A program made the position numbers and the translations under genes. This document shows positions 4,126 through 12,221 of a stretch of DNA of 12,221 nt, one piece after another. Location: contig JACQVL010000140.1 of the NCBI GenBank assembly GCA_016209865.1, forward strand, positions 1 through 12,221, written 5' to 3'. The number at the start of each line of letters is the position of its first letter. Position 1 is the stretch's first letter. The stretch comes from Candidatus Latescibacterota bacterium (GTDB lineage Bacteria; JAAXHH01; JACQVL01). The notes under the pieces were generated by a model. The model did no database searches. It worked only from the letters and a program-made list of their open reading frames with translations, and was not told the DNA's origin.

Positions 4126-4992
4126 ATGGAAATCTATGAGATAGAGTTTAAAGGGCGTCGCAGAGAACGCTACGGTAACCCGTTGAGTGTGCTGGTTGAA
4201 GTAGGGGAATACGTGATCGTCGAGGCCGAGCGCGGCGAGCACAGCGGGAAGGTCGTCTCCAGGTCCGAGGCGCTGGAGCCGGAGCCGGACCTCCGGTCGA
4301 TCCTCCGGCCGGGCACCCCGGAGGACCGGGAATGTCTGGTCAAGAATAGGCTCCGAGAGCAGGAAGCGTTCAGGACGTGCCGGGAGAAGATTCTCGAGCG
4401 CGACCTCGAGATGAAGCTCGTCGACGTGGAATACCAGTTTGACGGCAACAAAATCTCGTTCTATTTCACGGCGGACGGGCGGATCGATTTCCGCGAGCTC
4501 GTCCGGTGCCTGGCGGCGATCTACCGGACCCGGATCGACATGCGACAGATCGGGGCGCGGGATGAGACCAAGCGCATGTGCTGGACCGGAAGCTGTGGCC
4601 GTCCGCTCTGTTGCGGGACGTTCTTGCACCAGTTCCGGCCAGTCACCACCCAGGCCGCGCAGCATCAAAACCTGTCCCACAACTCGTCCAAGCTGTTGGG
4701 CGCCTGCGGCCGGCTGAAATGCTGCCTGCTGTACGAGGAAGGGTACTATGAGGAGGCCGGGAAACGATTCCCCAAGCTCGGAGCCCGGATCGCCACTCAG
4801 CTCGGCCCCGGCATCGTCGAGAAGATCGATGTCGTAGGGGACTTCGTCACCGTTGCCCATGACTCTGGAGTCGTCGAACGGCTCCCGCGCGCGATGATGG
4901 GCGAGGGGGATTGTGACGGCCAGAAATGCAGGAGGGATGTGGAGAGCTCCGTCGAGCATGACCATGACCACGCGATCGTCCACGAAGGATAA
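4126..4992 (+). CDS. ricT: RicT/YaaT-like PSP1-domain protein
   Basis: A 288-residue PSP1 C-terminal-domain protein. The diagnostic motif pair is present: GSCGRPLCCGTFL (residues 156-168) and GACGRLKCCLLYE (192-204), giving C157, C162, C163, C194, C199 and C200. In B. subtilis, RicT (YaaT) joins RicA and RicF in an iron-sulfur complex that promotes RNase Y-dependent mRNA maturation. The cysteine pairs fit such a role. Residues 105-145 contain the usual segment FYFTADGRIDFRELVRCLA. The last 26 residues add C263 and C268 (CDGQKC) and a HDHDH run, an extra possible metal site not expected from the family core. The gene lies between holB and metG, as yaaT lies close to both in Bacillus. It has its own promoter and a GAGGTG site before ATG 4126. 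Its partners are not in the window. Confidence 0.9.
   Translation: MEIYEIEFKGRRRERYGNPLSVLVEVGEYVIVEAERGEHSGKVVSRSEALEPEPDLRSILRPGTPEDRECLVKNRLREQEAFRTCREKILERDLEMKLVDVEYQFDGNKISFYFTADGRIDFRELVRCLAAIYRTRIDMRQIGARDETKRMCWTGSCGRPLCCGTFLHQFRPVTTQAAQHQNLSHNSSKLLGACGRLKCCLLYEEGYYEEAGKRFPKLGARIATQLGPGIVEKIDVVGDFVTVAHDSGVVERLPRAMMGEGDCDGQKCRRDVESSVEHDHDHAIVHEG
4985..4989 (+). promoter_or_regulatory. metG ribosome binding site within the end of ricT
   Basis: AAGGA sits in the last ricT codons, six bases before GTG at 4996. It supports the GTG start of metG and suggests that translation of metG is coupled to ricT. Confidence 0.6.
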
Positions 4993-7997: not shown

Positions 7998-8869
7998 TGT
8001 CCGCCATCGCCCTGCTCCGCCGGTACAGGATCCATCCCGACAAGGCGTTAGGCCAGCACTTCCTGGTGAACGACAGGATCGCACGCCGGATCGTGGACGC
8101 GACCGGGGTTGACGCTCACACCGTCGTCCTGGAGATCGGACCGGGGATCGGGGCGCTGACCCGCCAGCTCGTCGAACGCGCCCGGCACGTCGTCGGGGTC
8201 GAGATCGATCCCGCGCTCTTCCGGGTGCTCCAAGCTGAGTTCGCCGATTGCCAGAACCTCACCCTGCTGTGCCAGGATATCTGTGACCTGGACATCACGG
8301 AGGTCTGTCGCGCGCATGGCGTGGACGATCTGATCGTGGTCGGAAACCTGCCGTACAACATCACCGGTCCCGTCATCGAGCGACTGCTGCGGTACCGTTC
8401 CGTCATCCGTCTGGCGACGATCATGGTCCAGCAGGAAGTGGGCGCACGCCTGACCGCCCCACCGGGGAACAAGACGTATGGAGCCCTCTCGGTGATCGTC
8501 CAGTATACGTACCAGCCTCGCCTGCTGTTTCGCGTGTCGCCCGGTCACTTCATCCCCCGTCCCGCCGTCCAGTCCGTCGTGATGACGCTGACCCCCCATC
8601 CGACCCCGCCGGTGAACGTGCACGACCCGGACTGCCTGTTCCGTCTCGTCAAGGCCGCGTTTCGGCATCGCCGGAAGATGCTCCATCACGCGCTGACCGG
8701 AGACCTCATCCCGCATCCCGACGCGGCTCAGCGTGCCGAGATCGAGTCGTGCACGGGGATCGACCTGCGCCGGCGTGGGGAAACCCTCAGCCTGGCCGAG
8801 TTCGGACGGCTGGCGGATGCGATAGGGCAACGACACAACAGGAACGAAACGGCGAAACGGGAAATGTGA
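7994..8869 (+). CDS. rsmA: 16S rRNA dimethyladenosine transferase (RsmA/KsgA)
   Basis: A 291-residue enzyme that dimethylates the two adjacent adenosines near the 3' end of 16S rRNA during small-subunit assembly. Visible motifs are the N-terminal LGQHFLVN (residues 19-26), motif I LEIGPGIGALT (46-56), the acidic VGVEIDPAL (67-75), the catalytic NLPYNIT (118-124), and VSPGHFIPRPAVQSVV (181-196), which precedes the helical C-terminal domain. The first ATG (7994) overlaps the tatD stop codon as ATGA. A second ATG follows at once, so either may be used. No Shine-Dalgarno is seen, so translation is probably coupled to tatD. The deacetylase gene begins on its last stop-codon base. Confidence 0.96.
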   Translation: MMSAIALLRRYRIHPDKALGQHFLVNDRIARRIVDATGVDAHTVVLEIGPGIGALTRQLVERARHVVGVEIDPALFRVLQAEFADCQNLTLLCQDICDLDITEVCRAHGVDDLIVVGNLPYNITGPVIERLLRYRSVIRLATIMVQQEVGARLTAPPGNKTYGALSVIVQYTYQPRLLFRVSPGHFIPRPAVQSVVMTLTPHPTPPVNVHDPDCLFRLVKAAFRHRRKMLHHALTGDLIPHPDAAQRAEIESCTGIDLRRRGETLSLAEFGRLADAIGQRHNRNETAKREM

Positions 8870-10095
8870 TGCGTTACCGTCGCTCACACGCCGTCCGACA
8901 ACGCTTAGCCGGGCGAGTCCGGCGTCCCTACCGGGTGCGCCAGCGCGTGCTCCTGGGGCTGTTGGTGGTCACGATGGCCGGCTGGGGGGGATGGGCGCTC
9001 ATCCGGAATGAAGGGCAACCGAACGGGCTGTCCCGGCTGTTGGGCCGGTCCGAGCCGCCCCCGCGTCCGGTCGATGCCAGGATCAAGCGGGTGGTGGCGG
9101 AGGCCGAGCAGTACCGGACGATGGACTTCGCTATCGCTCAGGCGCTCACCAACCTCCAGGTGGCGCCGGGCCGCGTGAAGGAGACGCAATCATGGCAGCC
9201 GGGACGGGACGGACTCTGGCATCCGACGCGACGGACGGTCCGGGTCTCCGCGTTCTATTCGTTCACCCGGTGTAATCTTGAAGTGACCCGGGCCATCACG
9301 GCGGCCGGCGGACGGATCAGCAGCGCGGTCGAGCACAGTCTGACGCGCGAGCTCACTCTGCGCGTGGGGATCGGCGACCTCTTGACCCACGAGTTGACTC
9401 TCCGCCGCGACCCGGATGTCCCGCGCCGGACGGGCCAGATGGCGATCATCATCGATGACTTAGGGGAGGTCGGGGGTGACGTCACGACGCAGTTTGTGCA
9501 GATCAAGCAACCGTTGACGTTCGCTCTCATTCCCTGGCAGCGCGAGGCACGGCACCTGGCGACCGAGGCGATCCTGCGCAAACACGAGGTGATCGTCCAC
9601 CTGCCGATGGAACCGAAGGAGTATCCCCGGCTGAATCCGGGATGGCGGGCGATCTTCGTGAAGCAATCCGACGCACAAATCCGCCGTGTGATCCAGGATG
9701 CGCTCATCGCCCTCCCCGCCGCGCGCGGGGTCAATAACCACATGGGAAGCCGAGCCACGGAGAACGCGCAGGTGATGCAGATTCTCCTGGAGGAAGTGAA
9801 ACGGAGCGGCAAGTACTTTATCGACAGCCGGACGACGCCGCTGTCTGTCGGCTATCCGCTCGCCCGCCGGCTCGGCATCCGGAGCGCGGCCTCCTGGGGG
9901 TTTCTGGATGAGATCGACGATCAGGAGCGGATCGCGGATGCCCTCGACCTGGCGTCCCACACCGCGCTGGAGCAAGGTCCGCTCATCGTCATCGGGCACG
10001 CCCGGCCGAATACTCTGACCGTCCTGCTTCAGATGCTCGACCGTCTGGAACTCCGGGGGATCCAGTTCGTGCCCGCGTCTGCATTGGCGCGATAA
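8869..10095 (+). CDS. yibQ: YibQ-type divergent polysaccharide deacetylase, membrane anchored
   Basis: A 408-residue protein with a basic N-terminus (many Arg in residues 1-26), one membrane segment at about 27-45 and an extracytoplasmic remainder. Residues 68-188 are a poorly characterised stalk domain. Residues 190-408 are the divergent deacetylase fold (Pfam Polysacc_deac_2): IIIDDLG (193-199), VHLPMEP (243-249), GVNNHMGSR (287-295), FIDSRTT (317-323) and IVIGHARPNT (373-382). D196/D197, H244, H291, D319 and H377 are likely metal or catalytic residues. The natural substrate of this family is not established; in E. coli, yibQ follows envC, a regulator of murein hydrolases. The frame is open to 8749, but ATG 8869 (shared TGATG with rsmA) is preferred because it starts the basic, membrane-anchored N-terminus and avoids a 120-base overlap. 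Confidence 0.88.
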   Translation: MRYRRSHAVRQRLAGRVRRPYRVRQRVLLGLLVVTMAGWGGWALIRNEGQPNGLSRLLGRSEPPPRPVDARIKRVVAEAEQYRTMDFAIAQALTNLQVAPGRVKETQSWQPGRDGLWHPTRRTVRVSAFYSFTRCNLEVTRAITAAGGRISSAVEHSLTRELTLRVGIGDLLTHELTLRRDPDVPRRTGQMAIIIDDLGEVGGDVTTQFVQIKQPLTFALIPWQREARHLATEAILRKHEVIVHLPMEPKEYPRLNPGWRAIFVKQSDAQIRRVIQDALIALPAARGVNNHMGSRATENAQVMQILLEEVKRSGKYFIDSRTTPLSVGYPLARRLGIRSAASWGFLDEIDDQERIADALDLASHTALEQGPLIVIGHARPNTLTVLLQMLDRLELRGIQFVPASALAR

Positions 10096-10096
10096 C

Positions 10097-10103
10097 AGGA
10101 GAG
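10097..10103 (+). promoter_or_regulatory. Ribosome binding site of the pdxJ homologue
   Basis: AGGAGAG lies seven bases before ATG 10111. It is one of the strongest such sites in the window and suggests the gene is well translated. Confidence 0.65.
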
Positions 10104-10110
10104 CATCCGT

Positions 10111-10866
10111 ATGGTCAAACTCAGTGTCTGTCTCGACCTGATCGCAGCGATCCGGCGGATGGGGGGCCGGATCGACCCCGACCCGGTCGCCGCGGCCGTC
10201 CTCGCCCAGGTGGGCGGGGCAGACGGAGTGACGGTCTCCTGGCTGCCGGAGGGAACAGGGCTTCAACCCGATGAATTTCCCCTCCTCCGCAGGCTCGTCC
10301 AGACCCACCTCACCCTCATCATGCCCCCGGCGGATGAGGTCGTGCAGGGGGCCTTGACCCTCCGTCCGGACATGGTGACCTTCGTCCCGACCGGGTATCA
10401 GAGCGCCGGGTTGGGGAGTGATTGGGCGAACGTCGGATGGCCGGAGACAGACACATCAGGGCGATCCCTCGACCCGATCGTCCAGGTGTTCCAGGACCGG
10501 AACATCCTGGTCAACGTCCTGGTCAGCCCGTCTGCCACGGACGTCCGGGCCTGCTCGAAGCTCAACGTCGACTCTGTCCATCTCGATGCCAGCCGGTTTG
10601 CCACCGCCGCGAATGCCGGGGACGAGCAACAGGCCCTGAACGAGCTGGCCAGCACCGCCAAGGTCGCGGCACGCCTGAACATGGGGGTCTCGATCGGACG
10701 CGGCGTGACGCCCCAGAACCTCCCCGACCTGGCGGGCATCTGGGAGGTCGAAGAGGTGGTCGTGGGGCATGCCGTGGCGGCCAGAGCGATGGCGGTCGGC
10801 CTCGAGCGAGCGGTGCGCGACCTCGTCGATGTCATCCGCCACGCGCCCAACCGTCCGGGGGAATAA
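10111..10866 (+). CDS. pdxJ: PdxJ-like TIM barrel lacking most canonical catalytic residues
   Basis: A 251-residue protein of PdxJ length that aligns with pyridoxine 5'-phosphate synthase along its whole length: VCLDLIAAIRR against VNIDHIATLR, DPDPVAAAVLAQVGGADGVTV against the DPVxAAxxAExAGADGITV region, then RPDMVTFVP, VNVLVSP, and EVVVGHAVAARAMAVGLERAV near the end. Key family positions differ. The His of NIDH is Leu, the HLREDRRHI stretch is SWLPEGTGL, the Glu of NLEMA is Ile, the His of NAGHGL is Arg (IGRGV), and the TTEGGLD loop is absent. The late phosphate-binding GHA is kept. Descent from PdxJ is therefore clear, but normal vitamin B6 synthesis is doubtful. The frame is intact and well translated, so it is not a pseudogene. 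It sits 15 bases after yibQ and overlaps secD by one base. Confidence 0.8.
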   Translation: MVKLSVCLDLIAAIRRMGGRIDPDPVAAAVLAQVGGADGVTVSWLPEGTGLQPDEFPLLRRLVQTHLTLIMPPADEVVQGALTLRPDMVTFVPTGYQSAGLGSDWANVGWPETDTSGRSLDPIVQVFQDRNILVNVLVSPSATDVRACSKLNVDSVHLDASRFATAANAGDEQQALNELASTAKVAARLNMGVSIGRGVTPQNLPDLAGIWEVEEVVVGHAVAARAMAVGLERAVRDLVDVIRHAPNRPGE

Positions 10867-12221
10867 TGACCTCATCCATTCTCCGACACCTTCATGTCAT
10901 CCTGCTCCTGGCAGCCACCTGGTGTGGCTGCTACCTGCTTTACCCTACCGTCCAGCTCTGGACGATGACCCCCGACGAAGTGAACCGGCTGCCGCCGTCC
11001 GACCGGGCGGCGTTGATGCGCCGGGCGATCGTGCCTGGACTCGACCTACGCGGTGGGTTCTCGCTGCGGCTGATCGTGGATACCTCGAAGTGGTCGGAAC
11101 GTGGACAACAGGTGATGGTGAAGCAGGTGATCGACCTCATCCGCGCCCGTCTGACGGCGATCGGCATCATCGAGCCGGGGCTCCGGCGACAGGGCGGACA
11201 CGACATCATCGTCGACGTGCCGCTCAGCGCGGACACGACGCAGATCGGCTTCCTGGTGAGTCACCCTGGACGCCTGACGTTCCAGTTGCTGAAGAGCGGG
11301 ACGGACGTGCAAGCCCTGCGCCAGCGGATCGACGCCGTGCTCACGACGCGAGCCGCCGCCGATACCACGCGCCCGCCGGCTCGACCGGCGGCGTCCCCTC
11401 CGTTCAGCGGACTCCTGGCCAGTCTGGTGATCGACGAGGGGATCGAGGATATCGTCGTCGCGGAGACAGCCGTGCCGCAGGTCAAGACACTCCTCGCTGA
11501 TTCGACGGTGCAGGCGGAACTGCGAGCGTTCAATCGGTCCCATCCGCCCGCCGGCGAGTTCGTCTGGCCGAGAAAACCCGTCGTTCAGGCCGGGCAGCAG
11601 TTTTACCCGCTCTACTTCGTCAAGCAGGAACCCGACCTCATCGGTACTCCGCTTGCGTCAGCACGGGTCAACCAGGCCTCGGGCGCGATGGCCGCACGCG
11701 TTCCGTACGTGGTGGAAATCCAGCTCAATGACGACGGGCGGCAGACGCTGACCAGCCTGTCCAGCGCGAACGTCGGCCGGCGCCTGGCGATCAGCGTCGA
11801 CGGCGGGGTATACACGACGCTGACCATCCAGGGAAAGATTCCGGACGGCCGGGCGATCATCCCGGCCGGGAACACGCTCGAGGAAGCGAGCGTCTTAGCC
11901 ACGGTCCTCCAATCAGGCGTCTTTCCGGTGACCGTGGCGACCGTGCACACCGAACCCATCGGCCCGACGACCCAGGGCCACACGACCGCCGTCCGTCCCG
12001 GAGCGTACGCGGCTGGTCTGGCGCTCGTTCTGGCCGGCCTGTTCCTGATCGTGGTCTACCGGGTCGCCGGGGCCGTGGCGGTCGTCGGGCTCCTGTTTGA
12101 CCTCGTCATGACCGGCGCGTGTCTGCGGTTGTGGAAGATCGCGGGCATCCACCCGCTCTTGACTCTCTCCGGACTGATCGGCTGCGGCCTGGGGATCGGC
12201 CTCGTCCTGGGTTCACATATC
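10866..12221 (+). CDS. secD: SecD-like protein translocase subunit, divergent (3' truncated by window end)
   Basis: Open for 452 codons from ATG 10866 (sharing TAATG with pdxJ) to the last base. Residues 9-27 are a first membrane segment. GLDLRGGFSLRLIVD (58-72) is the SecD signature. A large periplasmic region follows, with a Pro/Ala-rich stretch (163-180), then VPYVVEIQLNDDGRQTL and the LQSGVFPVTV segment corresponding to the family's LxSGALPAPL. Membrane segments follow at about 381-398, 401-419 and 430-449. SecD/SecF use proton flow to pull secreted proteins out of SecYEG. The fourth segment reads LLTLSGLIGCGLGIGLVLGS where most SecDs have TLPGIAGxxLTIGMAVDAN. The conserved Asp aligns with G449 and the Pro with Ser. 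SecF would be expected next, outside the window. Confidence 0.82.
   Translation, partial: MTSSILRHLHVILLLAATWCGCYLLYPTVQLWTMTPDEVNRLPPSDRAALMRRAIVPGLDLRGGFSLRLIVDTSKWSERGQQVMVKQVIDLIRARLTAIGIIEPGLRRQGGHDIIVDVPLSADTTQIGFLVSHPGRLTFQLLKSGTDVQALRQRIDAVLTTRAAADTTRPPARPAASPPFSGLLASLVIDEGIEDIVVAETAVPQVKTLLADSTVQAELRAFNRSHPPAGEFVWPRKPVVQAGQQFYPLYFVKQEPDLIGTPLASARVNQASGAMAARVPYVVEIQLNDDGRQTLTSLSSANVGRRLAISVDGGVYTTLTIQGKIPDGRAIIPAGNTLEEASVLATVLQSGVFPVTVATVHTEPIGPTTQGHTTAVRPGAYAAGLALVLAGLFLIVVYRVAGAVAVVGLLFDLVMTGACLRLWKIAGIHPLLTLSGLIGCGLGIGLVLGSHI

Follow-up and report, generated by a model that had tools for sequence, protein, structure and literature searches.

The window, a 12,221-nt stretch of DNA from Candidatus Latescibacterota, makes up one whole contig in a genome bin of 3.75 Mb, and carries a gene for a homologue of the pyridoxine 5′-phosphate (PNP) synthase PdxJ between a polysaccharide deacetylase gene and a secD-like gene, with the following features.

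8869..10095, + strand: PF04748 divergent polysaccharide deacetylase (SddA/YibQ type), directly upstream of the pdxJ-like gene; PF04748 match of 221 bits, metal ligands intact
10097..10103, + strand: likely ribosome binding site AGGAGAG, from sequence inspection
10111..10866, + strand: PdxJ-fold protein without the PNP-synthase catalytic residues; 251-aa open reading frame, PF03740 match of 150 bits, model pLDDT 91
10237..10239, + strand: Ser43 codon, at catalytic His45 of E. coli PdxJ by alignment; Ser invariant in the phylum
10318..10320, + strand: Ile70 codon, at catalytic Glu72 by alignment; Ile invariant in the phylum
10390..10464, + strand: residues 94–118, a longer stand-in for the TTEGGLD active-site loop
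10699..10701, + strand: Arg197 codon, at catalytic His193 by alignment; Arg invariant in the phylum
10866..12221, + strand: secD-like gene, truncated at the contig end; name based on sequence and neighbors

The pdxJ-like gene is intact and follows a likely ribosome binding site, as an earlier note on this DNA had described, and its stop codon overlaps the ATG of the secD-like gene by one base. A further gene of the window, at 4126–4992 between holB and metG, which we take to be ricT-like, had no BLAST match at the corresponding position in the relatives compared.

The pdxJ-like protein matches PF03740 over its full length (150 bits against a curated cut-off of 24.5, E = 6e-44, profile positions 1–233 of 234), and its closest PDB entries by sequence are all PdxJ. 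The AlphaFold model (pLDDT 91) predicts a PdxJ-type TIM barrel, for which the top PDB fold matches are again all PdxJ at a TM-score of about 0.86, bearing out the full-length homology claimed in the earlier note. In PdxJ, H45, E72 and H193 are catalytic and, like the ligand residues compared below, were strictly conserved in the canonical sequences of this analysis. Relative to E. coli MG1655 PdxJ, which we used as the reference, the window protein carries H45>S, E72>I and H193>R, along with N9>C, H12>L, R20>G, R47>L, R50>G, H52>G, T102>G and E153>H, and retains D11, R17, G194, G215 and H216. The substrate-site residues that mark a PNP synthase (N9, R20, R47, H52 and T102) are thus C, G, L, G and G, and the protein fell below the cut-offs of all six NCBIfam PNP-synthase equivalog models (best 142 bits vs 190). 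The stretches containing residues 45, 72 and 193 aligned without gaps, so the catalytic residues have not shifted to a nearby register; the replacement of the catalytic signature stands, and the comparison with PdxJ sequences and structures that the earlier note proposed as a check revealed no relocated catalytic residues nearby. The same note was correct that the TTEGGLD motif is gone, but what replaces it is a loop six residues longer with conserved residues of its own (Tyr96, Gly100-Leu101, Trp105, Trp110-Pro111 and Arg118). It had also considered the GHA phosphate site kept, which holds for the window protein but not for the phylum, where the motif reads GYA in 13 of 15 copies, indicating that the phosphate site is retained only in part. 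The protein therefore resembles PdxJ (PF03740; E. coli structures 1HO1 and 1M5W) in full-length homology and barrel, and differs from it in the lost catalytic residues, the largely changed sites for both substrates, the longer lid and the scores below equivalog cut-offs. A PNP synthase working through other residues would account for the retained fold and overall sequence, but none of the three catalytic residues and few of the ligands of either substrate remain, and a canonical copy or PdxS covers the need for PNP; we consider it very improbable.

Orthologues were found in 15 of the 16 genomes of the phylum (E below 1e-130, compared with 3e-52 for the next best match among 384 genomes); G011, a 99% complete genome, had no orthologue match, and the contig with the better of its secD matches breaks off within secD. 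Across families the pdxJ-like proteins are 50–58% identical and share invariant Ser-Trp at 45–46, Ile 72, His 153, Asp 155 and Arg 193 (E. coli numbering), and they form their own strongly supported group with these fixed substitutions, a point that the earlier note had proposed to check with a tree. Its assignment of the gene to an operon with envelope genes is likewise upheld by the order deacetylase-pdxJ-like-secD, part of a block surA-S4-MTase-holB-metG-tatD-ksgA-deacetylase-pdxJ-like-secD that is kept wherever the contig is long enough. Among close relatives, dN/dS of the pdxJ-like gene is 0.11–0.24, within the range of the comparison genes (canonical pdxJ 0.10–0.32, metG 0.10–0.19, secD 0.14–0.26), and the gene is thus selected as a protein. 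The overlap of its stop codon with the secD start would suit a relic whose one remaining use lies in the translation or transcription of secD, but the low dN/dS, an amino acid constraint as strong as that of housekeeping genes, the identity maintained across families and the different setting in Calditrichota, where the gene does not immediately precede secD, make such a relic extremely improbable.

Canonical pdxJ is present elsewhere in every genome of the phylum and pdxA in all 16, whereas pdxS occurs in the window’s genome only, where the second canonical pdxJ, pdxA and pdxS that the earlier note suggested looking for were thus all found. In this genome the canonical pdxJ is divided between two contigs, which share an end overlap of about 84 bases containing a few mismatches, and its product is of one type, while the other genomes of the phylum encode another, very long-branched type. 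The latter, in the sister families (L017–L030), is a very divergent subfamily on a branch of about 2.2 changes per site that has N11, K12 and D194 and retains H45, E72 and H193. The pdxS gene (G000 C37:1202-1819), alongside canonical pdxJ and pdxA, could reflect a genuinely doubled supply or else a contaminated bin. The pdxA gene (G000 C288:16269-17141) lies in most genomes of the phylum within open frames of about 780–1020 codons, which may represent a fusion or high-GC read-through.

The presence of canonical pdxJ in all genomes of the phylum and of the pdxJ-like gene in 15 of 16 would fit a non-catalytic subunit that assembles with canonical PdxJ and tunes it, by analogy to plant PDX1.2, the non-catalytic partner of PDX1 (PdxS type). 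Both PDX1.2 and the window protein have a B6-synthase fold, have lost catalysis and have been retained, but they belong to unrelated families, and PDX1.2 acts via an active paralogue, which most genomes with a dead PdxJ in our analysis lack. Although PdxJ is an octamer (PMC10471632) and might accommodate such a subunit, the pdxJ-like partner is conserved over canonical copies of two very different types, and in Calditrichota and five other genomes the non-canonical copy occurs without any canonical PdxJ, so that we regard a tuning subunit as improbable. The two unlike canonical types and Calditrichota speak equally against an obligate partner of canonical PdxJ.

A PdxJ homologue was detected in 35 of 40 Calditrichota genomes, always one per genome (in one case split over two contigs), and all those that we read were non-canonical, including that of G385, a 4.98 Mb genome in a single contig. 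PdxS is encoded in 37 of the 40. As in the window’s phylum, the catalytic residues are lost from the sole operon-type copy, which has envelope-gene neighbors, here two small lipoprotein genes beside ligA that precede the pdxJ-like gene, often with secD and secF nearby. The Calditrichota copies differ in having other replacements (Y/T45, R/H72 and G193), in that their genomes encode no canonical PdxJ and in that no adjacent deacetylase was seen. Among roughly 65 sampled sequences outside these two lineages we identified five more clearly non-canonical PdxJ proteins, each the only PdxJ homologue of its own genome.

In two genomes (G743 and G478) a PF04748 deacetylase gene lies immediately 5′ of a non-canonical pdxJ, and in G468 a deacetylase gene and a Calditrichota-type lipoprotein gene are found about 3 kb from pdxJ. 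The same deacetylase also directly precedes a catalytically complete pdxJ in L008, L009, L092, L093, L096, L097 and L099 (with secD next in two of them), as well as in L191, L205 and L197. The deacetylase-pdxJ order occurs in 10 of 17 near relatives vs 0 of 27 distant canonical PdxJ, where near and distant are defined by a tree whose deepest split is weak. The gene order deacetylase-pdxJ(-secD) predates the catalytic loss and, given that the same order surrounds intact PdxJ in related lineages, the window gene looks like a long-established operon copy whose activity was lost. In the tree, 19 of 20 non-canonical rows form one clade (88/91) among operonic canonical sequences, and the remaining one, L105, groups apart with canonical L097; an AU test did not reject a single clade of all non-canonical copies (p = 0.24). 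A recent duplication of the phylum’s own canonical pdxJ was not the best tree, with AU tests that gave no rejection (p = 0.13 and 0.36). Given the long branches, and since none of the AU tests gave a rejection, the tree by itself does not settle the origin, and gene order is the stronger evidence.

E. coli SddA, a PF04748 protein, is a peptidoglycan deacetylase whose activity is abolished by replacement of D31/D32, H78 or H123 (PMC12440217). The PF04748 domain encoded in the window keeps D31, D32, H78 and H123 (DDHH) and is of the SddA type, while the 14 other copies examined in the phylum (orthologues in L033–L047) read AYLY, NQNY or NDNF and have lost most or all metal ligands; the dead deacetylase is still under selection, with dN/dS near 0.3. 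A deacetylase without metal ligands accompanies a canonical PdxJ in L092, L096 and L097, the reverse case of a ligand-intact deacetylase next to a non-canonical PdxJ is found in the window, L239 and L240, and in L008, L009, L093 and L099 both are intact; these are two adjoining enzyme genes, each of which has turned into a pseudoenzyme gene in different lineages. ATU2773, a dead SddA homologue kept beside envC in Agrobacterium (PMC12440217), is of the same family as SddA/YibQ and the window’s upstream neighbor and offers a precedent for a dead member in an envelope operon, but this precedent touches the deacetylase rather than the PdxJ protein, and envC, the known partner gene, is absent from the window. 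Because each neighbor lost catalysis in different lineages while the pair stayed together, a second function needing neither active site can be envisaged. We put forward tentatively a so far undescribed second role of PdxJ, independent of both active sites, within an envelope module of small lipoproteins, an SddA-type deacetylase and SecD, in which case lineages with an intact operonic PdxJ would carry a moonlighting B6 enzyme.

Across the phylum, part of the inner pocket and the new lid of the pdxJ-like protein are conserved and positions 47, 50 and 52 vary; taken as a set, the pocket residues showed no clear excess of conservation over the remaining positions (permutation P = 0.06 for the phylum; 0.13 and 0.20 for Calditrichota). 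Almost none of the new pocket residues are common to the window’s phylum and Calditrichota, which makes one common ligand doubtful. A rebuilt active site (Ser43, His157, Asp159, Arg197, His66 and Asp9 under the Trp-containing lid) acting on a different phosphorylated metabolite would explain the invariance of these polar residues and of the lid in three families and the retention of Gly198 and Gly219 from the standard barrel phosphate site. Yet positions 47, 50 and 52 are free to vary, the residues differ in other non-canonical lineages, and the loss of catalysis in the neighboring deacetylase is a better fit to a non-catalytic role, so that a new enzyme, though the leading alternative, appears rather unlikely. 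The conserved inner pocket and new lid, taken together with the variation at 47, 50 and 52 and the different set in Calditrichota, instead favor a non-catalytic ligand-binding protein. The repurposed TIM barrel suggested in the earlier note is supported by the catalytic loss, the separate group with fixed substitutions and the second canonical pdxJ, but its more specific suggestion of a phosphate-ligand sensor is at most a possible reading, as several phosphate-binding positions vary beside the conserved part of the inner pocket and lid.

We give about an even chance to the window protein being a pseudoenzyme of PdxJ fold whose altered pocket probably binds a ligand and which has a putative envelope-linked role. 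Five observations underlie this reading: the catalytic residues are lost, the gene is under purifying selection, its order is kept, other B6 genes are present, and the same order surrounds intact PdxJ. The gene would be the pdxJ of an old deacetylase-pdxJ-secD operon; its product would have ceased to make PNP, probably once another B6 route existed (the unlinked canonical pdxJ here, PdxS in Calditrichota), and would have been retained for a second, envelope-linked role. We speculate that the predicted PdxJ barrel accommodates another ligand, probably one with a single phosphate, in the remnant of the inner pocket under the new lid, and that it may serve as a non-catalytic binding or regulatory protein acting together with the SddA-like deacetylase and SecD. 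The envelope link is suggested by gene order alone, and operon membership could persist for expression reasons alone; the AU tests also leave other tree placements possible. A literature search on PdxJ as a pseudoenzyme, in Latescibacter, in a deacetylase operon or as a moonlighting protein returned no description, and the gene order points to an unrecognized, testable link between PdxJ and envelope genes.

The gene pdxJ is used as a signature of the DXP-dependent B6 pathway (PMC9997740). Since in whole lineages the only PdxJ homologue lacks the catalytic residues, B6 pathway calls made from the presence of pdxJ could be wrong there.

The two small lipoprotein families next to the Calditrichota gene (L141:8414-9624 and loci L142–L160) are kept across that lineage, and a Pfam search of these lipoproteins gave no convincing family. 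A gene related to them adjoins deacetylase-pdxJ in other lineages.
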